DNA of 64,000 nucleotides from Methylibium petroleiphilum PM1 (GTDB lineage: Bacteria; Pseudomonadota; Gammaproteobacteria; Burkholderiales; Burkholderiaceae_C), in assembly GCF_000015725.1 (NCBI RefSeq), contig NC_008825.1, positions 3,038,001 to 3,102,000 of the forward strand. The letters run 5' to 3'. Within the stretch, counting starts at the first letter, position 1. The number at the start of each line of letters is the position of its first letter. The notes under the pieces were generated by a model that searched no databases, was not told the origin of the DNA, and was given only the letters and a program-made list of their open reading frames with translations. Below, one piece after another: positions 1,356 through 32,772 of this stretch. The position numbers and the translations under genes were made by a program.

Positions 1356-3062
1356 TCAGGCGGCGCAGGTGCGGTTCTTGCCGCTGTGCTTGGCCTCGTA
1401 CAGCGCCTCGTCGGCGCGCTCCAGCGATTGCTCGAGCCGTTCGCCGGGCCGGTAGAGGCTGACGCCGGCCGAGAAGGTCACGAACACCTGCCCCTGCTCA
1501 TCGCTCATGAACAGCTCCGCGCTGAGCGTACGCTGCACGCGGGTGAGCACGCGCTGCGCCTCGTCGAGCGGCGTGCCCGGCAGCAGCACCACGAACTCCT
1601 CGCCACCGTAGCGCGCCAGTGTGTCGCCGGGGCGCAGCGCCTGCGCGACGCGGTGCGTCAGGAACTGCAGCGCCGCATCGCCGCTCGCATGGCCCAGCCG
1701 ATCGTTGAGCTTCTTGAAATTGTCGATGTCGATCAGCGCCACGGCGAGCGTCGCGCCCTCACCCTGTGCAGCCCGCTGGTTCTTGGCCTGCTCCGTCTCG
1801 AAGGCCTGCTGCAGGCCGCGGCGGTTGGCGATCTGCGTCAAGGGGTCCGTGGACACTTCGTCCGACAGCCGACGGATCTCGTCCTCCAATTCGACCACCC
1901 GCGCCTGCATCTCGGCCGATCGGCTGTGCTCCAGAGCCAGTCTGGCCTGCGCCTGGCTGACCCCTTCGTGCACTGCCCGGCTTTCAGCCACCATCTGTCG
2001 CACCGTCCCGGCCAGGCTCTCAAGAGACTCGGCACGGTCGATCTCGTCGGCGTACCCGTCCAATTGAGACGAGAAGCGCCCGGTCTGTGCACCCAGCGAG
2101 GCAATCTCGTCGAGCATCTCGTGGATCGAGTCCTTCAAGGCATCTCGGGCCGCCTTGCGGGCCGCGCGCAGTTCCTGCTGGCGCTCGCGCGTACCGAGCA
2201 GCAGTTGGCTGACTGATCGCACGCCCCTTGCCGTCAGGCCACCGTCGCTCTCGAACAGCTGACTGCGCATCACCTCGCACTGCCCTTTGACCCAGGAATC
2301 GTCCTCGGACAGGTCGGCCAGACCTTCGGTGAGTTCCTGGCACAGCCCTCCCAGTTGGTTCGTCAGGTGCTGGCGATGCTGCAACACCCGTTGCGCCTCG
2401 GTGCAAGCCTGCGCCACGTCTTCGACAACACCATCGGGGCCGTCGGCAGCAATGCGCGCCTGCAACTGCGCAAGCCGCTCGGCCACCTCGCGGCTGCGCG
2501 CCTCGCTCGACGGCAAGGCCGCCTGAACGGTCGCACCGAGTTCGGCGGCAACGCGCGACCAGGCCATCGAGACGGGCGCCGGCGAAGCCTCTGCAACGAC
2601 CATCGGCGCGACGTCGCCCACGGGTGCTGCCGCGTCGAAAGGTGCCAGATCGCTCGGTGCCTCGTCGAGCGCATCACTGTCCCAGCTGGCGATGAGCTGC
2701 TTGAGCCTTTGCTGCAGCCGCTTGGCGTCACTGCGGCTGCCCCCGAGCACCCGCTGCAGACTGTCCTTGCGTCGAGCGGCGGTCCAGTTGCGGCCGCCAC
2801 GCTCCACGCCCCGCAGGGCGCTCTGGAACAGAGCGGCCCACGCTTCGCCGTCGCCTTCGGCGCTGTCCGGCACGGCAGCAGCAACCCCCGCCGCGGGCCC
2901 CGGTGCGTCACCGCGCTCCGTCCGGTAGGCCCACGCAAAGTTCTCGGGCGTCGGTTGCTTGCGCTCCAGCGCAAGGCGGCGCAGCGCCGCCTTGGCCAAC
3001 TCCGCAGCCGCGGGCTCCGCGGCACGTGCAGCGGACGCTTCCGGGTTCGAGGCCACGCCCAT
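1356..3062 (-). CDS. Diguanylate cyclase with long coiled N-terminal region
   Basis: A 568-residue protein predicted to make c-di-GMP from two GTP. The C-terminal GGDEF domain (about 400-565) has the active-site GGEEF at 486-490 and an inhibitory-site RPGD at 477-480, five residues before it, so catalysis and product inhibition both look intact. Residues 1-400 are Ala/Glu/Arg-rich and mostly helical, with likely coiled coil around 290-400 and no membrane segment or recognised sensor. It starts 9 bases after the stop of the REC-GGDEF-EAL gene, so the two are almost certainly co-transcribed. The input it senses is unknown. Confidence 0.9.
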   Translation of the reverse strand: MGVASNPEASAARAAEPAAAELAKAALRRLALERKQPTPENFAWAYRTERGDAPGPAAGVAAAVPDSAEGDGEAWAALFQSALRGVERGGRNWTAARRKDSLQRVLGGSRSDAKRLQQRLKQLIASWDSDALDEAPSDLAPFDAAAPVGDVAPMVVAEASPAPVSMAWSRVAAELGATVQAALPSSEARSREVAERLAQLQARIAADGPDGVVEDVAQACTEAQRVLQHRQHLTNQLGGLCQELTEGLADLSEDDSWVKGQCEVMRSQLFESDGGLTARGVRSVSQLLLGTRERQQELRAARKAARDALKDSIHEMLDEIASLGAQTGRFSSQLDGYADEIDRAESLESLAGTVRQMVAESRAVHEGVSQAQARLALEHSRSAEMQARVVELEDEIRRLSDEVSTDPLTQIANRRGLQQAFETEQAKNQRAAQGEGATLAVALIDIDNFKKLNDRLGHASGDAALQFLTHRVAQALRPGDTLARYGGEEFVVLLPGTPLDEAQRVLTRVQRTLSAELFMSDEQGQVFVTFSAGVSLYRPGERLEQSLERADEALYEAKHSGKNRTCAA

Positions 3063-3071
3063 CGCGCGAGC

Positions 3072-5336
3072 TCAGGCGCCCGGAGGCAGATTGCCCGGCA
3101 GGGCGCGCACATCGGCCCGCGGCACCGACTCCGCCGTGGCGTCACTGTCTTCCACCTGCCCGATCCACGGGGCCTTGCGAGGCAATACGGTCTGCGCCAG
3201 CCATTGCTCCAGGTCTTCAGGCGGCAAGGCCTTGCTGAACAGGAAGCCCTGCATCGTGCTGCAGCCCAGGCGGTGCAGCACCTCCATCTGGCGCAGGTTC
3301 TCCACGCCCTCCGCAATCACGCGGATGCCGAGCGAGCGCGCCAGCGCAATGATCGCCGTCACCACAGCCGAACTCTGCAAGGTAACGCCGAGGTCACGCA
3401 CGAAGCTGCGGTCGATTTTCAGCTCGCTGATCGGCAGCGTCGTCAGGTACGCGAGCGAAGAATAGCCGGTGCCGAAGTCGTCGATGGAGATCTCGACGCC
3501 GATCTCGTTGAGTCGATGCAAGGCCGGGATCACGTTCTGCAGATCCTTCATCAGGCCGGTTTCAGTGATCTCCAGCTCGATGCAGGAATGCGTGACGCCG
3601 TGCGCCGCCGCGGCCTGCTGGATGTGGGTCACCAGGTCGGTGCGCTCGAACAGCCGGCTCGGCAGGTTCACCGCGATCGAGGTATCGATGCCATGGTGCT
3701 GCTGCCACAGGCGCGCCTGCCGGGTGGCCTCGCGGATGGCCCACTCGCTCATCGGCACGATGAGGCCGGTCTCCTCGGCCAGCGGGATGAAATCGCCGGG
3801 CGGCACCAACACGCCATTGCGCTTCCAGCGCATCAGCGCCTCGGCACCGACCATGCGCGCGGTGCGCACGTCGATCTTCGGCTGGTAGTGCAGCACCAGT
3901 TCCTCGCGCTCGATGGCCTTGTGCAGCGCGCTCTCGAGCTCGAGCTTCTCACGGCCCTTGCCGGCCAGATGCGGCCGGTAGAGCGATGCCGCGTTGCGTC
4001 CGGCTGCCTTGGCGGAGTACATCGCCACATCGGCGTTGCGCAGCACGTCGGCCACCGAAGCGCCGTCCCGAGGGAACAGCGCGATGCCGACGCTCGCCGT
4101 CACGAAGCATTCCTGGCCGCCCACGAAGATGGGCTCGCGCATCACTTCGAGGATGCGCAGCGCAACGCGCTCGGCATCCTGGTCAGCATCGACCTCGGGC
4201 AGCAACGCCACGAACTCGTCACCGCCGAGACGACCGACCGCCTCCAGCGAGCGATGCGCGCGCAGACCTACCGAGTCGATCCCCGTCTCGACCACCTGGT
4301 CGGAGTGCCGCACGCAGGACCGCAGTCGCCGAGACACCTCCATCAGCAGTTCGTCCCCCGCCCCGTGCCCGAGCGTGTCATTGATGACCTTGAAGCGATC
4401 CAGGTCGATCAGCAGCAGCCCCACCTGATGGTTCAGCCGCTTGGCCTGTTCCATCGCACGTTCGGCGCGCCAGATCAACTGGCGCCGGTTCGGCAGGCCC
4501 GTCAGTGCGTCGAAGTTCGCCAGGTGACGGATCTTGTCCTCGGCCACCCGTCGGTCGGTCACGTCCTGAACGATGCCGGTGTAGCCGGTCAGGTTGCCGT
4601 GTTCGTTGAACTCGGGTTCGGCCTCGACGTGGACCACGCGCTGGCGCCCGTCGATCAGTTGTACCGGGAAATCGGTGGCCAGCACGGTGCTGCGGGCCAG
4701 CGTATCCCGCAACAGCGACAGACAGCCCTGCCGATGCTCGGCGGGGACCATGCGGATGAGCGATCTCATGCCGAGGTGATCCCCCGGGCCCAGACCGAAG
4801 ACGCGCAAACCCTCGACCGAGAACAGCAGCCCCGAGCGATCGCGCCGCCAGTCGAAGCTTCCCATGCGTGCGAGATCCTGCGCGCGTGCCAGCTTCGATT
4901 TGCTGCGCTCGAGCTCCAGTCGGGTGCGGGACGAGCGCAGCAGATAACGCAGCCGTCCGGCCAGCAGACTCCACTGCGTCGATTTGACGAAAAAGTCGGT
5001 GGCGCCGGCCTCGTAGGCACGGGTGATCGACGCATCGTCATCCAATCCGGTCAGCATCAGCACCGGCATCGACTCGAAGCCGGGCAAGGCGCGCAGCTCT
5101 CGGCAGGTGGTGAAGCCGTCCATGCCGGGCATCAGCGCATCGAGCACGATGACGTCGGGCGACCAGTCGGTCAGCAACTGCACCGCGCGCTCGCCGCTGG
5201 TGGCTTCGGTGACGGCGAAGCCTCGCTCGCGCAACGCGATCGATGTCAGCAGCAGGTTGACCTCGTCGTCGTCGACCAGGAGAACACGAGGGCTCTCCAG
5301 AGGATCGTCGACAGAGGGATCGGCGCGCAGGTCCAT
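3072..5336 (-). CDS. Response regulator with PAS, GGDEF and EAL domains
   Basis: A 754-residue c-di-GMP turnover protein. Domains in order: REC (about 16-130, phospho-acceptor D66, K118), PAS (about 150-265), GGDEF (about 275-450, GGDEF at 371-375) and EAL (about 465-720, EAL at 499-501, later DDFGTGYSS and EGVEN). Both catalytic motifs appear intact, so cyclase and phosphodiesterase activity are both possible. Odd feature: about 20 extra residues (347-367) separate the RHSD inhibitory-site-like motif from the GGDEF loop, where normally only five residues lie. It sits between a hybrid kinase and a diguanylate cyclase on the same strand, and the kinase's phosphorelay is a plausible input. Confidence 0.92.
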   Translation of the reverse strand: MDLRADPSVDDPLESPRVLLVDDDEVNLLLTSIALRERGFAVTEATSGERAVQLLTDWSPDVIVLDALMPGMDGFTTCRELRALPGFESMPVLMLTGLDDDASITRAYEAGATDFFVKSTQWSLLAGRLRYLLRSSRTRLELERSKSKLARAQDLARMGSFDWRRDRSGLLFSVEGLRVFGLGPGDHLGMRSLIRMVPAEHRQGCLSLLRDTLARSTVLATDFPVQLIDGRQRVVHVEAEPEFNEHGNLTGYTGIVQDVTDRRVAEDKIRHLANFDALTGLPNRRQLIWRAERAMEQAKRLNHQVGLLLIDLDRFKVINDTLGHGAGDELLMEVSRRLRSCVRHSDQVVETGIDSVGLRAHRSLEAVGRLGGDEFVALLPEVDADQDAERVALRILEVMREPIFVGGQECFVTASVGIALFPRDGASVADVLRNADVAMYSAKAAGRNAASLYRPHLAGKGREKLELESALHKAIEREELVLHYQPKIDVRTARMVGAEALMRWKRNGVLVPPGDFIPLAEETGLIVPMSEWAIREATRQARLWQQHHGIDTSIAVNLPSRLFERTDLVTHIQQAAAAHGVTHSCIELEITETGLMKDLQNVIPALHRLNEIGVEISIDDFGTGYSSLAYLTTLPISELKIDRSFVRDLGVTLQSSAVVTAIIALARSLGIRVIAEGVENLRQMEVLHRLGCSTMQGFLFSKALPPEDLEQWLAQTVLPRKAPWIGQVEDSDATAESVPRADVRALPGNLPPGA

Positions 5337-5378
5337 GGGTGAATTCTTGATCGACAGCGCGTGGGTCGTGGATCCGGG

Positions 5379-8384
<3,006 letters not shown>

Positions 8385-8595
8385 CGAGCCACCCCCGACC
8401 CGGGAACCCGCCGTGTCGATGTGGACGTCTTGCGTCCGGGTTGGCCGACGGCGCGGATCGAGCAGGTGCGCATGTCGGCAAGTGTGGCGTGGCCCGGTGC
8501 CGCGCGCAAAGCCGCCGCCGTCCCTCCTGTCGGGTGCTGGCGAGCCGTCGCGACGCCGAGGCCCCGCTGCGGCAATCGTTCACGGATGCGACTTC

Positions 8596-8601
8596 TACAA
8601 T
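8596..8601 (+). promoter_or_regulatory. -10 box TACAAT giving a near-leaderless start
   Basis: TACAAT, preceded by TTC, ends 7 bases before the ATG of the kinase gene at 8609. A transcript starting the usual 6-8 bases downstream would begin at or next to the ATG. No good -35 hexamer is seen 17 bases upstream, and no ribosome-binding sequence precedes the ATG. The call rests on the match and spacing only. Confidence 0.45.
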
Positions 8602-8608
8602 CGATCAC

Positions 8609-9883
8609 ATGATTTCGATTGACAACGACCTCAGGCGTGCACTGTCCCGGATCGCGGAAGCCTCGGGCATCGGACTCGGCGCGTTGCTGCTGCCGGTCGA
8701 CGCGCGAGCTGCCTTCGACGCTGCCGAGGGTCTGCCCTGGCATGCCTTCGGGCTGTTGCTGGTCGGCGCGCTGCTGGCACTGGGCGTCCTGCTCGGTCTC
8801 CTGGCGTGGCAACAGCGCCAGCGGCGAGACGCCGCTGCACTGCGCGACGAGCGCGCCCGCGTGCGACGCCTGCTCGGCTTGATCGAGGGCCCGCTGTGGC
8901 GCACCGACGCACAGCACCGCCTGACCGCGCTGCGCGCGACGGCGCTGCCTGCCGACCATGCGCTGCACGCCGGCCGCGACAGTCAGGCGTTCTGGCAGCT
9001 GTTCGACGAGACGTCGATGCCCGGCCTGCGCCAGGCTCTCGAGTCGGAAGCCGATTTCCAGGCCATCGAGGTCGGGCTCGCGGCGCCTGGCGGCGGGCCG
9101 CTGCAACGCTGGCGATTGAAGGCATGCGTGTGCCTCGACGCCTCGGGCCGCTTCGCTGGCCACGAGGGGAGCGCGACGCTCCTGACGCCCCCACGCCCGT
9201 CGCCGGCGGGTGCGGACGAGGATGCGGCGTCGTTCGGCACGCTGGTGTCGCACGATCTGCGCGCACCGATCCGGGTGGTCGAGGGCTTCACGAAGATTGT
9301 CAAGGAGGACTACGGTCGCCTGCTCGATCGCGTCGGCAACGACCACCTTGACCGCGTACTCGGGGCCGCGGCCCGCATGAACGGCATGATCGACGCGCTG
9401 CTGGCGCTGTCGAGACTCGGCGCGCTGCCTCTGGCGCGCCAGACGGTCGACCTGTCGCAACTCGCGAGCTACGTGATCGACGATCTGCAGCGCCAGGCGC
9501 CCGAACGCCGCGTCGATGTCCGCATCGCGCCCGGCCTGCTGGTCACCGGCGATCCGACCCTGTTGCGCGTGGTGCTCGAGAACCTGCTGGGCAACGCTTG
9601 GAAATACAGCGCCCATCGCCACGTTGCCCGGATCGAACTGGGCCGCGTGGTCGAAGGCGAGCACAGTGCGTTTTGCGTGGCCGACAACGGCGCCGGTTTC
9701 GACATGCGCTTCATCGATCGGCTGTTCGGCGTGTTTCAGCGACTGCACAGCAGCAGCGATTTCGCCGGCACCGGGGTCGGCCTTGCGTCGGTGCGGCGCA
9801 TCGTGCAACGCCATGGCGGCGAGATCTGGGCGGAGGCCGAGGTCGACCGCGGAGCCCGCTTCTACTTCACCCTGTCCACCTGA
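8609..9883 (+). CDS. Membrane-anchored sensor histidine kinase
   Basis: A 424-residue kinase. One membrane helix lies at about 46-67, a degenerate PAS-like linker at about 85-195, HisKA with LVSHDLRAPIRVVEGF (H215), and a HATPase domain with the N box ENLLGNAWKYS, ADNGAGFDMRF and GTGVGLASVRRIV. It resembles the phytochrome-type/CHASE-linked soluble kinases used with short response regulators. The start at 8609 is chosen because the upstream frame is arginine-rich and a -10 box sits just before this ATG. It runs convergently with the ANTAR regulator gene (29-base gap) and divergently from the hybrid kinase. Its partner is unknown. Confidence 0.85.
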   Translation: MISIDNDLRRALSRIAEASGIGLGALLLPVDARAAFDAAEGLPWHAFGLLLVGALLALGVLLGLLAWQQRQRRDAAALRDERARVRRLLGLIEGPLWRTDAQHRLTALRATALPADHALHAGRDSQAFWQLFDETSMPGLRQALESEADFQAIEVGLAAPGGGPLQRWRLKACVCLDASGRFAGHEGSATLLTPPRPSPAGADEDAASFGTLVSHDLRAPIRVVEGFTKIVKEDYGRLLDRVGNDHLDRVLGAAARMNGMIDALLALSRLGALPLARQTVDLSQLASYVIDDLQRQAPERRVDVRIAPGLLVTGDPTLLRVVLENLLGNAWKYSAHRHVARIELGRVVEGEHSAFCVADNGAGFDMRFIDRLFGVFQRLHSSSDFAGTGVGLASVRRIVQRHGGEIWAEAEVDRGARFYFTLST

Positions 9884-9912
9884 AACGATCGACGCCAAGA
9901 CGGCCACTCGGT

Positions 9913-10509
9913 TCACGGCGCCGCAGGCGCCGACAACAGCTCGACCGCGGCCAGGAGCTGCTCGCACTCGGCCTCCAGCGCCCGCCCGTGATGCGTCGCC
10001 AGCCGGCGCAGCCGCTCCAGCGCCACGGCACGCGGCAGCGAGTGCCTGTGCATCACCACGCCGACCGCGATGGCCACCGGATCGGACAGCGGATCGCGCG
10101 GACGCGGCGCACCGACCTCGGCGACCGGTTCGACCCCGCCGCGGATGCGCTTGAACGCCGCCTCGACCGCCGGCAGGATCTGCCGCATGTCGACCGGCTT
10201 GATCAGGTGATCCAGTGCGCCCAGGGCCCGCACCTGCGCCACCGTGGCCGCGTCGGAGAAGGCCGACAGGAACATGAAGGGCACGCTGCCGTGCTCTCGC
10301 AGGTAGGCGGCCACGTCGAATCCGCTCTTGCCCTCCATGCGGATGTCGAGCAGGGCCAGGTCCGGCCGGCGCGTGCGCGCCTCGAGGATGGCGTCGTCGC
10401 CATTGTCGGCGTCGACCACGGCATAGCCGGCCGCGGACAAGCCGTGCGTCAGCGTCGCCAGCACCAGCCTGTCGTCATCGACGACGAGGATCTTGCCCTT
10501 GCTGCTCAA
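9913..10509 (-). CDS. ANTAR-domain response regulator (RNA-binding antiterminator type)
   Basis: A 198-residue regulator: REC domain 1-120 (DDD at 11-13, phospho-acceptor D55, K104) followed by an ANTAR helical domain (about 142-190). ANTAR proteins bind paired hairpins in mRNA leaders and prevent termination. A TTG start at 10509 is preferred because AGGGG lies 8 bases before it and REC begins right after; an upstream ATG at 10581 would add an unlikely Cys/Gly/Arg-rich extension and overlap the preceding gene. It follows the HisKA_2 kinase gene after 58 bases, and HisKA_2-ANTAR pairs are a known two-component pattern (EutW/EutV type). Confidence 0.88.
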   Translation of the reverse strand: MSSKGKILVVDDDRLVLATLTHGLSAAGYAVVDADNGDDAILEARTRRPDLALLDIRMEGKSGFDVAAYLREHGSVPFMFLSAFSDAATVAQVRALGALDHLIKPVDMRQILPAVEAAFKRIRGGVEPVAEVGAPRPRDPLSDPVAIAVGVVMHRHSLPRAVALERLRRLATHHGRALEAECEQLLAAVELLSAPAAP

Positions 10510-27188: not shown

Positions 27189-28565
27189 ATGCCGGCCCCA
27201 CTGCTCGCTGCTGCATCCGGCCCCTCGCACCGGAAGGGTCCCGTGTTCTCCCGGACGACGGGACGCTGGATCGTCATGCTGCTCGCCTGGGCAGTCACGA
27301 CGACGGCACTGGCGGCGGCGTCCGCCGCCGGCACGGCCCCCACCGGTTATGCCGTGCCGATCGGTGGCGAACTGAGGTACGACAACACCGCGGTCTGGTC
27401 GCGACTGGTGCAACTGTCGGGCGGACCGGGCTCGCGCTGGGTGGTGATCCCGGCGGCGTCGTCTGCCCCCGAGAAGACCGGCGAGATGGTCGTCGATGCC
27501 CTGCAGCGCCACGGCGCCCAGGCCGTGACCCTGCCGGTCGCGCCGGAATGGCAGGGCTACGAAGTGGCCGAGGCGGTGCACGACCCGGTACTGATCGAGC
27601 AGGTGCTGGCAGCCACCGGCATCTATTTCGCCGGGGGGGCGCAATCGCGCATCACCGACTCGCTGCAACCCGACGGCCTGCCGACGCCGCTGCTGCAGGC
27701 GATCTGGAGCGTGTACCGCGCCGGCGGCGTGGTGGCCGGCACCAGCGCCGGCGCCGCAGTGATGAGCGAGACCATGTTCCGCGACGCCTACGACGTGCTG
27801 CGTGTGCTCAAGCGCGGCCGTCTCGACGAAGGGCAGGAGATCGGCCGCGGCCTGGGCTTCGTCGGACCCGAACTGCTGATCGACCAGCACTTCCTCAAGC
27901 GCGGCCGCATCGGCCGCCTGCTCCCGCTGATGGTGCAGAAGGGCTACCGCCTCGGCCTCGGTGTGGAGGAAAACACCGCCGCGATCCTGCACGACGGCAA
28001 GGTCGAGGTGGTCGGCGGCAAGGGCGTGCTGCTGGTCGACCTCGGCGCGGCCTCGCAGGACGGCCGGCTCGACGCCTTCAACCTGCGCAATGCCAAGCTC
28101 ACCTACCTGGACCGCGGTGACCGCCACGACCTGCACAGCGGCGTCACCACGCCCTCGCTGCAGAAGCTCCAGGGGCAACTGATCGACCCGGGTTCGCCGG
28201 ACTTCGCGCCGAGCTTCGAGAGCGCGCCGTTCCAGAACGACATGCTCGGCCCCTCGACCATCGTCGACGCGATGGGCTCGCTGCTCGACAACCGCGACAC
28301 CGAGGCCACCGGCCTGGCCTTCAGCGGCACGCCGCGCGCCAGCGATCCGCAGCCCGACCTGGGTTTCGAGTTCCGGCTGCGGCGCGGCCCCGACAGCCAC
28401 GGCTGGTACACCGGCGCCTTCGGCGGCGACGACTACACGGTGCTCAACCTCTACCTCGACGTCACGCCGATCACCATCGCCCGTCCGCTCTACGGCCCCG
28501 CGACCGCCTCCGCGACCGACGCCGTGGTGCCACGCTACGAGCCGCTGGCGCCGACCCTGCCCTGA
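27189..28565 (+). CDS. Secreted cyanophycinase (peptidase S51)
   Basis: A 458-residue serine exopeptidase expected to split cyanophycin (multi-L-arginyl-poly-L-aspartate) into beta-Asp-Arg dipeptides. The family motifs FAGGAQ (147-152) and GTSAGAAVMSE with nucleophile S186 are clear. A hydrophobic signal sequence (about 27-47) suggests export, as in the extracellular CphE type; the C-terminal third is longer than in intracellular CphB. The start at 27189 has GGAGG 10 bases upstream; a shorter start near the signal peptide is possible. The next five genes encode a polar amino-acid transporter and a metallohydrolase on the same strand. Confidence 0.88.
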   Translation: MPAPLLAAASGPSHRKGPVFSRTTGRWIVMLLAWAVTTTALAAASAAGTAPTGYAVPIGGELRYDNTAVWSRLVQLSGGPGSRWVVIPAASSAPEKTGEMVVDALQRHGAQAVTLPVAPEWQGYEVAEAVHDPVLIEQVLAATGIYFAGGAQSRITDSLQPDGLPTPLLQAIWSVYRAGGVVAGTSAGAAVMSETMFRDAYDVLRVLKRGRLDEGQEIGRGLGFVGPELLIDQHFLKRGRIGRLLPLMVQKGYRLGLGVEENTAAILHDGKVEVVGGKGVLLVDLGAASQDGRLDAFNLRNAKLTYLDRGDRHDLHSGVTTPSLQKLQGQLIDPGSPDFAPSFESAPFQNDMLGPSTIVDAMGSLLDNRDTEATGLAFSGTPRASDPQPDLGFEFRLRRGPDSHGWYTGAFGGDDYTVLNLYLDVTPITIARPLYGPATASATDAVVPRYEPLAPTLP

Positions 28566-28661
28566 GCGGCCGCCCGCAGCGGCTAGCATGGCGACCGGCG
28601 ACGGCCCGTGCGCTGCGCTCGCGCGCCACCCCCGCCCTTCCAACGACCGCATGAGGACCGC

Positions 28662-29453
28662 ATGACCCGTTTCGCCTCCTTCCTGGCCCTGACCGCCGTC
28701 CTGCTCTTCGCGGCCGAGCGTGGCCTGGCCGCCGACGGGAAGAAGCTGCGCATCGCGGTCGAGGGCGCCTACCCGCCGTTCAGCGAGGTCACACCCTCCG
28801 GGCAGTTGAAGGGCTTCGACATCGACATCGCGAACGCGCTGTGCGCCCAGATGAAGACCGAATGCACGCTGGTGCAGCAGGACTTCGACGGCATGATCCC
28901 GGCGCTGCAGGCGCGCAAGTTCGACGCCATCGTCGCGTCGATGTCCATCACGCCGGAGCGGCAGAAGGTCGTGGCCTTCACCGAGCGCTACTACCAGACC
29001 CCGGCGCGGCTGGTCGCCAAGAGCGGGAGCAAGCTGGAGCTCACGCCCGAGGGCCTGAAGGGCAGGAAGATCGGCGTGCAGCGCTCGACCATCCACGACC
29101 GCTTCGCCACCGCCACCTTCAAGGGCGCCGAGATCGTGCGCTATACCAAGCAGGACGAGGTTTTCCTCGATCTCGCCGCCGGACGCATCGACGCGACGCT
29201 GCAGGACTCGGTGGCCGCCGACGTCGGCTTCCTCAAGACACCGCAGGGCAAGGGCTACGGCTACATCGGCCCGTTCTACGACGACGAGAAGTTCTTCGGC
29301 GTCGGCGCCGGCATCGCGCTGCGCAAGGGTGACACCGAGCTGCAGTCGAAGCTCAACGCGGCGATCAAGGGGATCCGCGCCGACGGCACCTACAAGAAGA
29401 TCCAGGACAAGTACTTCGACTTCGACGTCTACGGCGAAGCGCCGAAGAAGTGA
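28662..29453 (+). CDS. ABC transporter periplasmic binding protein, Lys/Arg/His/ornithine type
   Basis: A 263-residue SBP_bac_3 protein: signal peptide 1-23 (ends GLA), then KLRIAVEGAYPPFSEVTPSGQLKGFDIDIANALC and DFDGMIPALQARKFDAIVASMSITPER, which are typical of the HisJ/ArtJ/LAO group. It binds the ligand in the periplasm and delivers it to the two permeases that follow. It starts 97 bases after the cyanophycinase stop, so it may share its transcript; the natural ligand may be arginine or an Arg-containing dipeptide (inference). Confidence 0.92.
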   Translation: MTRFASFLALTAVLLFAAERGLAADGKKLRIAVEGAYPPFSEVTPSGQLKGFDIDIANALCAQMKTECTLVQQDFDGMIPALQARKFDAIVASMSITPERQKVVAFTERYYQTPARLVAKSGSKLELTPEGLKGRKIGVQRSTIHDRFATATFKGAEIVRYTKQDEVFLDLAAGRIDATLQDSVAADVGFLKTPQGKGYGYIGPFYDDEKFFGVGAGIALRKGDTELQSKLNAAIKGIRADGTYKKIQDKYFDFDVYGEAPKK

Positions 29454-29481
29454 GGCCCGCCGCCCTCGCACCGCCCCGCTG

Positions 29482-30171
29482 ATGCTGCACGGCTATGCCC
29501 CCTCGCTGCTGAACGGCACGCTGCTGACCCTGGCGCTGGCGCTGCTGTCGCTGGCCATTGCCGTGGTGCTGGGCCTGGCCGCCGCGAGCGCCCGGCTGTC
29601 GCGCTCGCGCTGGCTGCAGGGCGGCGCGCTGGCCTACACCACGCTGATCCGCGGCGTGCCGGACCTGGTGCTGATGCTGCTGGTGTTCTTCGGCGGCCAG
29701 CTTGCGGTCAATGCGCTGGCCCAGCAACTGGGCTTCGCGGACTACATCGATGTCGACCCCTTCGTGGCCGGCGTGCTGACGATCGGCTTCGTGTTCGGCG
29801 CCTACCTCGGCGAGACCTTCCGCGGCGCCTTCCTTGCGCTGGCGCCCGGCCAGCGCGAGGCCGGCCTGGCCTGCGGCATGAGCCGCTGGCAGGTGCTGCG
29901 CCGGCTGCTGCTGCCGCAGATGCTGCGCTACGCCCTGCCCGGCCTGTCGAACAACTGGCTGGTGCTGGTCAAGAGCACCGCCATCGTCTCGGTGATCGGC
30001 CTGAACGACATGATGCTGCGCGCCACCCAGGCGGCCGGCGCGACGCGCGAGCCCTTCGTCTTCTACGCCAGCGCGGCACTCATCTACCTCGCCATCACCA
30101 GCGTCAGCGAGCTGGGCTTCAAGGCGCTGGCCCGCCGTCTCGCGGTCGGCGTGAGGACGGGCGCACTGTGA
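29482..30171 (+). CDS. Polar amino-acid ABC permease, HisQ/ArtQ type
   Basis: A 229-residue inner-membrane permease with about five helices (first at about 8-30) and the cytoplasmic coupling loop GQREAGLACGMSRWQVLRRLLLPQMLRYALPG that docks on the ATPase. It starts 28 bases after the binding protein and its stop overlaps the GTG of the next permease. Confidence 0.92.
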   Translation: MLHGYAPSLLNGTLLTLALALLSLAIAVVLGLAAASARLSRSRWLQGGALAYTTLIRGVPDLVLMLLVFFGGQLAVNALAQQLGFADYIDVDPFVAGVLTIGFVFGAYLGETFRGAFLALAPGQREAGLACGMSRWQVLRRLLLPQMLRYALPGLSNNWLVLVKSTAIVSVIGLNDMMLRATQAAGATREPFVFYASAALIYLAITSVSELGFKALARRLAVGVRTGAL

Positions 30172-30857
30172 ACTTCGAGGCCATCGCCGAGAGCCTGCCG
30201 CTCTACGCGAGCGGCCTGGCCACCACGCTGCAGCTGCTGCTGATCTCGCTGGCAATCGGGCTGGTGGCGGCACTCCCGCTCGCGGTGCTGCGGGTGTCGG
30301 CCTCGCGGTGGCTGCACGGCCCGGTGTGGTGCTTCACCTACGTGATCCGTGGCACGCCACTGCTGGTGCAGCTGTTCCTCGTCTACTACGGTCTGGCGCA
30401 GTTCGAGTGGGTGCGCGCCAGCATCGCCTGGCCCTGGCTGCAGTCGGCCTGGTTCTGCGCCTGCCTGGCGTTCGCCGTCAACACCTGCGCCTACACCACC
30501 GAGATCATCGCGGGCAGCCTGAAGGCCACGCCGCATGGCGAGGTCGAGGCGGCACGCGCACTGGGCCTGTCGCGTGCCCAGGTGTGGCGCCGCATCCTGC
30601 TGCCCTCGGCGCTGCGGCGTGCGCTGCCGGCCTACGGCAACGAGGCGGTGCTGATGCTGCACGGCACCTCGCTGGCCAGCGTGGTCACGCTGCTCGACCT
30701 CACCGGCGCCGCGCGCGAGGTCAACTCGCGCTTCTACCTGCCCTTCGAAGCCTTCCTGACGGCCGCTGCGGTCTACTTGGGCCTGACGCTGGCGCTGGTG
30801 GGTGCGCTGCACGCGGCCGAGCGCCGCTGGCTCTCCCACCTGCGCCCGCGCGCCTGA
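30168..30857 (+). CDS. Polar amino-acid ABC permease, HisM/ArtM type
   Basis: A 229-residue second permease starting at GTG within the GTGA overlap with the previous gene. The helices ATTLQLLLISLAIGLVAALPLAV and RGTPLLVQLFLVYYGLAQFEW and the coupling loop GEVEAARALGLSRAQVWRRILLPSALRRALP match the HisM family. It pairs with the preceding permease to form the channel. Confidence 0.93.
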   Translation: MNFEAIAESLPLYASGLATTLQLLLISLAIGLVAALPLAVLRVSASRWLHGPVWCFTYVIRGTPLLVQLFLVYYGLAQFEWVRASIAWPWLQSAWFCACLAFAVNTCAYTTEIIAGSLKATPHGEVEAARALGLSRAQVWRRILLPSALRRALPAYGNEAVLMLHGTSLASVVTLLDLTGAAREVNSRFYLPFEAFLTAAAVYLGLTLALVGALHAAERRWLSHLRPRA

Positions 30858-30879
30858 GCCTCCGGAGACCTCCACCACC

Positions 30880-31995
30880 ATGCAACGCCGCGACCACCCC
30901 TTGCCCAGCCGCAGTCTCGGCACGCTGCGCACGCTCACCAGCTTCCACTATGGCCCGCCCGGCGGCCCGAAGGTCTACGTGCAGGCTTCGCTGCACGCCG
31001 ATGAGTTGCCCGGCATGCTGGTCGCGCACCACCTGCGCGAGCGGCTGGCCGAGCTGGAGGCCCGGGACGCGCTGCGCGGCGAGGTGGTCGTGGTGCCAGT
31101 GGCCAACCCCATCGGCCTGTCGCAGTGGCTGCTGCGCAGCCCGATCGGCCGCTTCGAACTCGCCAGCGGCGAGAACTTCAACCGCCACTACCCGGCGCTG
31201 CGCGACGCGGTGTGGGCGCGCATCGAGCCGTCGCTGGGGCCGGACGCGCAGGCCAACGCCGCGCTGGTGCGGGCGGCGCTGCGCGAATCGGTGGCGCTGC
31301 TCACCGTGGAGTCCGAGCTGGAGGCGCAGCGCCGCACGCTGCTGGCGCTGGCCTGCGACGCCGAGGTGGTGCTGGACCTGCACTGCGATGCCGAGGCCGT
31401 GCTGCACCTCTACGCCGGCACGCCGCTGTGGCCGCAGACCGAACCGCTGGCACGCTACCTCGGCGCCCAGGCAACCTTGCTGGCCACCGAGTCGGGTGAC
31501 CAACCCTTCGACGAGGCCTGCTCGCAGATCTGGTGGGAACTGGCCGAGAAGGCCGGCCCCGCGCGGCCGATCCCGCTGGGCTGTCTGTCGGTGACGGTCG
31601 AGCTGCGCGGCATGGCCGACGTGGGCCACGCGCAGGCGCGCCAGGATGCGCAGGCGCTGGTCGACTTCCTGACCCATCGCGGCCTGGTCGCCGGCGAGGC
31701 CCCGCCGCTGCCGCCGCTGCCCTACCCCGCCACGCCGCTGGCCGGCTCGATGCCGGTCACCGCGCCGGTCAGCGGCGTCCTGGCCTGGCACCGCGGGCCC
31801 GGTGACTGGGTGCGTGAAGGCGAGCTGATCGTCGACGTGATCGACCCGATCAGCGGCCAGGTGACGGCGCTGGCGAGCGCGACCGACGGCCTGCTCTACG
31901 CCCGCGAGAACCTGCGCTTCGTGACGGCCGGCACCCGGCTGGCCAAGGTGGCCGGCCAGGAGGCCCGGCGGACCGGCAAGCTGCTGGGTGCCTGA
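30880..31995 (+). CDS. Succinylglutamate desuccinylase/aspartoacylase-like zinc hydrolase
   Basis: A 371-residue M14-related metallohydrolase. The zinc ligands fit H39 and E42 (HADE) and H168 (LDLHCD), with E241 (VTVELRG) as the likely catalytic base. The last 75 residues form a barrel-like module (GSMPVTAPVSGVLAWHRGPGDWV) resembling biotinyl/lipoyl folds. The family cleaves N-acyl or amide bonds at carboxylate amino acids. It lies between the permease and ATPase genes of the same transporter, so it should act on the imported compound; beta-Asp-Arg cleavage is an attractive guess given the cyanophycinase upstream. No signal peptide, so cytoplasmic. Confidence 0.85.
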   Translation: MQRRDHPLPSRSLGTLRTLTSFHYGPPGGPKVYVQASLHADELPGMLVAHHLRERLAELEARDALRGEVVVVPVANPIGLSQWLLRSPIGRFELASGENFNRHYPALRDAVWARIEPSLGPDAQANAALVRAALRESVALLTVESELEAQRRTLLALACDAEVVLDLHCDAEAVLHLYAGTPLWPQTEPLARYLGAQATLLATESGDQPFDEACSQIWWELAEKAGPARPIPLGCLSVTVELRGMADVGHAQARQDAQALVDFLTHRGLVAGEAPPLPPLPYPATPLAGSMPVTAPVSGVLAWHRGPGDWVREGELIVDVIDPISGQVTALASATDGLLYARENLRFVTAGTRLAKVAGQEARRTGKLLGA

Positions 31996-31998
31996 GGC

Positions 31999-32772
31999 AT
32001 GAGCGGAGATCCCAAGCTCCAGGCCCTGGGCCTGTACAAGCGCTACGGCGCTCACGAGGTGCTGAAGGGCGTGTCGCTCACGGCGCGTGCCGGCGACGTG
32101 ATCACGGTCGTCGGCTCCAGCGGCTCGGGCAAGAGCACGCTGCTGCGCTGCCTGAACCTGCTCGAGCAGCCGAGCCAGGGCCGCCTGCTGCTCGGCAGCG
32201 AGGAACTGGCGCTGGTGCCCGACCGCGACGGCAGCCTGCGCGCCCGCGACGCGAAGCAGCTGCAGCGCTGGCGCGCACGGCTGGCGATGGTGTTCCAGTC
32301 CTTCAACCTGTGGCAGCACCTGACCGCACTGCAGAACGTGATCGAGGCACCGATGCAGGTGCTGGGCCTGGGCAAGGCCGAGGCCACCGAGCGCGCGCAG
32401 GCGCTGCTGGCGCGCGTGGGCGTGGCGCACCGCGCCAGCACCTTCCCGGCCCACCTGTCGGGCGGCGAGCAGCAACGCGTCGCGATCGCGCGTGCGCTGG
32501 CGATGGAGCCCGAGGTGATGCTGTTCGACGAGCCGACCTCGGCGCTCGACCCCGAGCTGGTGGGTGAGGTGCTGAAGGTGATGCGCGATCTGGCGGCCGA
32601 GGGCCGCACGATGATCGTCGTCACGCACGAGATGGGCTTTGCGCGCGAGGTGTCGAACCACACGCTGTTCCTGCACCAGGGCCTGATCGAGGAACAGGGC
32701 CCGCCGCGCGAGGTGCTGGCGCAGCCGCGCAGCGAACGGTTGCGGGCCTTCCTCTCGGGCGGGCTGAAATAG
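31999..32772 (+). CDS. Polar amino-acid ABC transporter ATPase, HisP/ArtP/GlnQ type
   Basis: A 257-residue ATPase with Walker [10 protein letters not shown] (39-47), Q-loop FQSFNLW, signature LSGGEQQRV, Walker [14 protein letters not shown] and switch histidine in [12 protein letters not shown]. It closes the operon binding protein - permease - permease - hydrolase - ATPase and starts 3 bases after the hydrolase stop. The 12-base-gap neighbour downstream is convergent. Confidence 0.95.

Follow-up and report, generated by a model that had tools for sequence, protein, structure and literature searches.

A candidate cyanophycin-scavenging operon with a predicted secreted cyanophycinase, an ABC importer and a CphZ homologue in Methylibium petroleiphilum PM1

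The window analysed here is a stretch of 64,000 nucleotides, positions 3038001-3102000 of the 4,044,195-base contig NC_008825.1, in the genome of Methylibium petroleiphilum PM1 (two contigs, 4,643,639 bases). At window positions 27189-32772 it holds six genes, arranged head to tail on the + strand, for a cyanophycinase of the S51 family, the four components of an ATP-binding cassette (ABC) transporter and a zinc hydrolase (Table 1). The intergenic gaps, from 5' to 3', are 96, 28, -4, 22 and 3 nt. A sequence-only reading had described six one-strand genes encoding a secreted cyanophycinase with the motifs FAGGAQ and GTSAGA, a HisJ/HisQ/HisM/HisP-type transporter and, between the permease and ATPase genes, a zinc hydrolase with the motifs HADE and DLHCD. 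Genes and motifs were found as read, and the substrate-binding protein (SBP), the two permeases and the ATPase were confirmed by Pfam and TIGR01096. The locus stands beyond chance, because the Pfam E-values of the operon genes are 9.5e-12 and lower and the same arrangement of genes is found in many genomes.

Table 1. Genes of the candidate operon, in window coordinates.
Feature	Position	Strand	Basis
Cyanophycinase, predicted secreted, CphE-type (S51), catalytic domain and C-terminal extension of about 170 residues	27189..28565	+	TIGR02069 over cut-off; CphB residues kept; leader by rule
Periplasmic SBP, LAO/HisJ/AotJ type	28662..29453	+	TIGR01096 over cut-off; 58% identity to aot SBP
HisQ/AotQ-like permease	29482..30171	+	PF00528; 57% identity to P. 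aeruginosa counterpart
HisM/AotM-like permease	30168..30857	+	PF00528; 66% identity to P. aeruginosa counterpart
CphZ zinc hydrolase, without leader	30880..31995	+	8ein/8eip top by sequence and by model; motifs kept
HisP/AotP-like ATPase	31999..32772	+	PF00005; 73% identity to AotP

The cyanophycinase scores 143.5 bits against TIGR02069, the cyanophycinase equivalog model, whose cut-off is 126.6 bits, and its aligned region is 37% identical (73/199) to CphB of Synechocystis (3en0). All nine of the CphB residues checked are kept (Ser132, His174, Glu201, Gln101, Asp172, Gln173, Arg178, Arg180 and Arg183), and they are likewise kept in all 15 S51 relatives from like operons; Ser132, His174 and Glu201 form the catalytic triad of CphB. 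The frame is open from 27021, and translation from the ATG at 27189, the start chosen in the sequence-only reading, puts a leader peptide at the N-terminus. The Pfam match is confined to the catalytic part, leaving unmatched a C-terminal extension (28056-28565) that is common to the S51 genes of 15 named related loci and in which F353, N354, GDR 366-368, TPS 377-379 and GG 468-469 are invariant among like operons. By two models this is the sole S51 gene in the genome. Ser132 and six substrate-binding residues of CphB are named in PMC3235067.

Judged by sequence and structural model, the hydrolase is a homologue of CphZ. It matches PF24827 (AstE_AspA_cat) at 52.6 bits against a cut-off of 25, no NCBIfam family matched it, and its nearest named relative, from Methylibium sp. 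Root1272, is 96% identical. The closest solved structures by sequence are 8ein (E 4e-80) and 8eip (E 2e-79), given in their PDB titles as CphZ of Acinetobacter baylyi, 8eip being the E251A variant with bound beta-Asp-Arg; CphZ of A. baylyi was reportedly described by Sharon et al. in PNAS in 2023. For a predicted model of the hydrolase, built from 17 sequences with a mean predicted local distance difference test (pLDDT) score of 91.1, VIA-align ranks the same two structures at the top (Z 49.5, 1.6 A, 366 residues, 38% identity), followed by two functionally unassigned Shewanella proteins (Z about 38), DoeB (26.6) and AstE (about 18). HADE, the DLH within DLHCD and the Glu of TVELRG, which is the residue mutated in 8eip, are aligned and kept; H39, E42, H168 and E241 are invariant in 17 CphZ sequences. 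Alignment A1 leaves out L022 and L090, which carry stop-codon errors, and L024, L084 and L089 by choice.

Alternatively, the hydrolase may act on another acyl amino acid, such as succinylglutamate, N-acetylaspartate or acetyl-diaminobutyrate, as AstE, AspA and DoeB do, with its place in the operon incidental. The Pfam family is indeed named after AstE and AspA, but the CphZ structures score over 20 Z units higher than DoeB and AstE, for which reason AstE, AspA and DoeB were rejected as its identity, and both the pairing with S51 genes and a gene order matching that of an operon with an M14 gene, described below, speak against such an activity. We regard it as extremely improbable. IadA and IaaA were also considered as the operon's dipeptidase and set aside: neither has a match in the genome at E 0.001, under which the IadA model did find the E. 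coli control and the IaaA model found 5 of 14 control genomes. The earlier expectation of an intracellular cleavage enzyme outside the usual isoaspartyl dipeptidase families is borne out in the CphZ homologue. Such cleavage is already in print for the CphZ family, reported in 2023 according to PMC10206079, and a wholly new dipeptidase family was rejected for this reason.

The compartments were assigned by a simple leader-peptide rule, controlled on the genes of the named related loci, which are the best 80 of 126 found. The rule is positive for 15/15 S51 proteins and 80/80 SBPs, and for 0/81 CphZ and 0/68 HisP proteins. The S51 product of the window is also positive, and a cytosolic location for it was rejected on the basis of the leader together with these controls. 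Therefore the predicted secretion of the cyanophycinase and the predicted intracellular place of the hydrolase both stand. If the polymer is cut outside the cytoplasm and the dipeptide inside it, an importer is called for between the two.

The transporter provides a candidate. Its SBP passes the cut-off of TIGR01096 (Lys/Arg/Orn class) and shares 45% identity with LAO and 49% with HisJ. A Pseudomonas aeruginosa record (NZ_CP131792.1) has the order SBP, permease, permease, M14 metallopeptidase, aotP and argR, followed by one hypothetical gene and then by arginine catabolism genes. The M14 product is 47% identical to the hydrolase of the window, and the identities of the other four pairs are listed in Table 1. 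Sharon et al. in PNAS reportedly identify the M14 gene of the aot operon as a CphZ, and the operon is said to allow growth on beta-Asp-Arg. The pocket of the SBP was compared at LAO positions. R77 and D161 of LAO are kept. Among the SBPs of S51-bearing operons, all 12 carry E11, A69, Q117 and R118 in LAO numbering, where LAO itself has D, S, L and Q and AotJ has E, S, L and R. The same residues prevail in operons without S51 (E11 in 55/68, A69 in 63/68, Q117 in 53/68 and R118 in 58/68), and they mark a subgroup of SBPs without revealing its ligand. The comparison of the pocket with those of LAO, HisJ and AotJ did not separate arginine from dipeptide.

The association of CphZ with S51 genes was surveyed in 200 genomes drawn from the family. 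The main S51 counts were made at 80 bits or more, with 50, 115 and 126.6 bits as alternatives, and four CphZ rows with E between 1.6e-4 and 6.8e-4 were dropped before counting. CphZ was found in 57/200 genomes (74 loci) and S51 in 49/200 (78 loci). Of the 74 CphZ loci, 29, in 27 genomes, have an S51 gene no more than 10 kb away, which in 28 cases is on the same strand; by our own estimate random placement in genomes of comparable size would yield about one or fewer. At the alternative thresholds of 50, 115 and 126.6 bits the adjacent loci number 29, 28 and 21. The S51 hits fall into a group of 18 loci at 170 bits or more, none of which adjoins CphZ, and 60 lower-scoring loci that hold all the neighbours. 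The 28 CphZ-neighbouring S51 genes at 115 bits or more are all leader-bearing, 27 by rule and one (L164) by eye. Mapped onto the CphZ tree, the S51 label requires a minimum of 6 changes, 4 of them forced by well-supported branches, and none of 500 shuffles gave clustering as strong. The pairing recurs, and it has been gained or lost several times; conservation in relatives, on which the sequence-only reading depended, was thus observed. In most of the named loci that extend far enough, the CphZ gene lies within the transporter operon. In a wider search of 274 members of the class, CphZ was matched strongly in 12, of which two belong to this family.

Taken together, these results support the view that the six genes constitute one cyanophycin-scavenging operon, to which we assign a probability of about 0.82. 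It draws on the family identity of both enzymes, their active-site residues, the compartments, the gene order and its recurrence, all read from sequence and model. The secreted CphE-type serine peptidase would cut the poly-aspartate backbone of cyanophycin, a polymer rich in nitrogen, outside the cytoplasm to give beta-Asp-Arg dipeptides. The AotJQMP-like ABC importer would move the dipeptide through the inner membrane, with free arginine as a probable second substrate, and CphZ would then split the isopeptide bond inside to give Asp and Arg for nitrogen and carbon. From these data we infer the activity of the proteins, the transport of dipeptide and not of arginine only, and the co-transcription of the genes; we place high confidence in the two enzymes and moderate confidence in the import of dipeptide. 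The scheme first proposed from the letters alone, in which the polymer is broken down externally, the product is imported and beta-Asp-Arg is cleaved within the cell, remains the best reading, with the amendment that the substrate need not be foreign only. A complete operon of secreted cyanophycinase, importer and CphZ is hereby placed in the Methylibium chromosome. Since this operon is present and the pairing recurs in the family, it is plausible that bacteria of this kind obtain nitrogen from cyanophycin or its dipeptides.

Several observations weigh against this assignment. No S51 gene of at least 80 bits lies within 10 kb of 45 of the 74 CphZ loci. In the named loci, where the window's S51 served as the sole query for S51 genes (E 1e-5), 15/80 have one and 57/80 have none despite at least 6 kb of upstream sequence, the other 8 ending too soon. 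CphZ operons therefore often work without S51. A promoter scan of the locus found no promoter-like site. The genome has a tandem cphA pair of its own, so that a foreign polymer need not be the substrate. Finally, AotJ binds L-Arg at 0.12 uM and does not bind ornithine (PMC6829864), and the excerpt of that paper contains no test of beta-Asp-Arg binding by AotJ that we could find.

This last point bears on the possibility that the transporter imports arginine only, with cyanophycinase and CphZ sharing the operon for arginine acquisition and the dipeptide reaching CphZ through a general dipeptide transporter or from a cytosolic source. An SBP of the Lys/Arg/Orn class that is 58% identical to AotJ and keeps R77 and D161 of LAO would suit such a role. 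Nevertheless, CphZ is predicted to be cytosolic and its gene mostly sits inside the transporter operon, the genome is without a cytosolic S51 enzyme that could feed it, and the pocket of the SBPs of S51-bearing operons may differ, given their four residues unlike those of LAO; of these four, AotJ has E11 and R118 and lacks A69 and Q117. We consider import of arginine alone unlikely.

The host's own cyanophycin genes raise a second possibility. No cphA lies in the window, as had been remarked; the same chromosome holds a tandem cphA'/cphA pair at 1089463-1094218, 2 Mb from the operon. The pair scores 722.2 and 965.8 bits against TIGR02068, the second gene alone passing the cut-off, and both genes pass NF010623. 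On the opposite strand beside them lie a match to NF052233, the cyanophycin metabolism-associated ABC transporter, for which the next best model is MsbA, and a DUF1854 protein (NF052234). The whole arrangement, cphA' and cphA with the divergent NF052233/NF052234 genes, occupies 2460-10219 of locus L149 (contig positions 1086459-1094218; G000 C1), and no S51 gene was found there. Because it has this pair, the genome is not that of a pure scavenger, and the substrate may be polymer made by the strain itself or by its kin. The operon might thus mainly recover cyanophycin of its own or of its kin, released by lysis or export. The synthetase pair with its linked exporter-type ABC transporter and DUF1854 gene, and the presence of no other S51 gene, are in keeping with such a role, but the operon is 2 Mb away from the pair, 81/124 genomes with cphA are without S51 at 80 bits or more, and 17/57 CphZ genomes are without cphA at the threshold. 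By these counts, cphA and scavenging systems occur apart. Recovery of own or kin polymer as the main function is conceivable, though not probable.

A further pattern emerged around the NF052233 gene, for which the thresholds were E 1e-150 (cphA) and E 1e-250 (ABC gene), weaker copies being scored as absent. The ABC gene is present in 120/124 cphA genomes and in no genome without cphA. The four cphA genomes without it (G046, G083, G195 and G197) are also the only ones, among 43 with both cphA and S51, in which the start of an S51 gene is less than 12 kb from the top cphA match, and this S51 is leaderless in 4/4; the four bear four genus labels, and the counts ignore kinship. A fifth leaderless high-scoring S51 (L136 of G156) occurs in a genome that has the ABC gene. 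The clean separation is therefore between the ABC gene and a leaderless cyanophycinase near cphA, not between the ABC gene and leaderless S51 as such. In two of the four genomes, G083 (L124, L152) and G195 (L128, L160), the leaderless cyanophycinase by cphA is joined by another S51 gene, with a leader and close to CphZ, as though one set of genes handled the cell's own store and another handled scavenging.

This pattern, in which the ABC gene accompanies cphA in 120 of 124 genomes and the remaining four alone have a near-cphA, leaderless S51, suggests that cyanophycin turnover in betaproteobacteria with a tandem CphA pair might be partly external. The ABC and DUF1854 proteins would move polymer or dipeptide out, and a secreted cyanophycinase with the CphZ importer operon would return the product. 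We offer this as a speculation that is very probably wrong. If true, it bears on the rarity of recognizable cyanophycinase in cphA1-bearing betaproteobacteria, which PMC10206079 puts at 2.8% of such genomes and calls unanticipated. Among the matches listed in our literature search, no paper was found that joins cyanophycin, an ABC transporter and DUF1854.

The leaders of the surveyed S51 genes were examined in 77 of the 78 loci, G052 C29, given in two pieces, being left out. By rule, 58/77 are positive and 19 negative. Among the negatives, L127, L131, L134 and L164 are twin-arginine-translocation (Tat)-like by eye; no leader is seen in L124, L126, L128, L129 and L136; seven low-scoring ones (L183, L185-L188, L190 and L196), in which the match begins deep in a long frame, are not judgeable; and L181 (at a contig end), L137 and L153 are left unassigned. 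Of the 18 high-scoring loci, 12 have a leader (9 by rule; L127, L131 and L134 by eye), five have none, and L137 is unassigned. Eleven of them (L120-L123, L125, L127 and L130-L134) are high-scoring CphB-like cyanophycinases with twin-arginine-type leaders, 8 by rule and 3 by eye. Because most carry such leaders, the CphB-like cyanophycinases of the family are probably exported too. The survey sharpens the question, raised in PMC10206079, of the missing cyanophycinase in betaproteobacteria with cphA, since most S51 proteins here have export signals and a leaderless one close to cphA occurs solely in the four cphA genomes that lack the ABC gene.

The operon is flanked upstream by a UPF0176 rhodanese gene on the same strand and downstream by a DUF599 gene on the opposite strand. 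A terminator scan gave two terminator-like sites against 1.2 expected.

The system is a further example of a known pathway, correctly read from sequence, and its parts can be compared with those already described. As with CphE of P. anguilliseptica and P. alcaligenes, in the description given in PMC3235067, the cyanophycinase has a leader, is larger than CphB and keeps a Ser/His/Glu triad, and its binding pocket likewise has the Gln, the Asp and the three Arg; at the position of CphB Gln173, however, CphEal has Thr whereas the window enzyme has Gln. The hydrolase resembles A. baylyi CphZ (8ein, 8eip) in fold, in zinc motifs and in the Glu mutated in 8eip, but is 38-41% identical to it, and its gene lies within an ABC transporter operon headed by a cyanophycinase gene. 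With the aot operon the window has five genes in common, in unchanged order (SBP, Q, M, M14 hydrolase, P). The argR at the end of the P. aeruginosa operon is absent downstream in the window, and no S51 gene was found in the 12.2-kb P. aeruginosa stretch. Similarly, the cyanophycin utilization locus of Ben Hania et al., as described in PMC10206079, clusters cyanophycinase, dipeptidase and transporter for scavenging; its dipeptidase is IadA, whereas the window has CphZ together with an ABC importer of the Arg/His kind.

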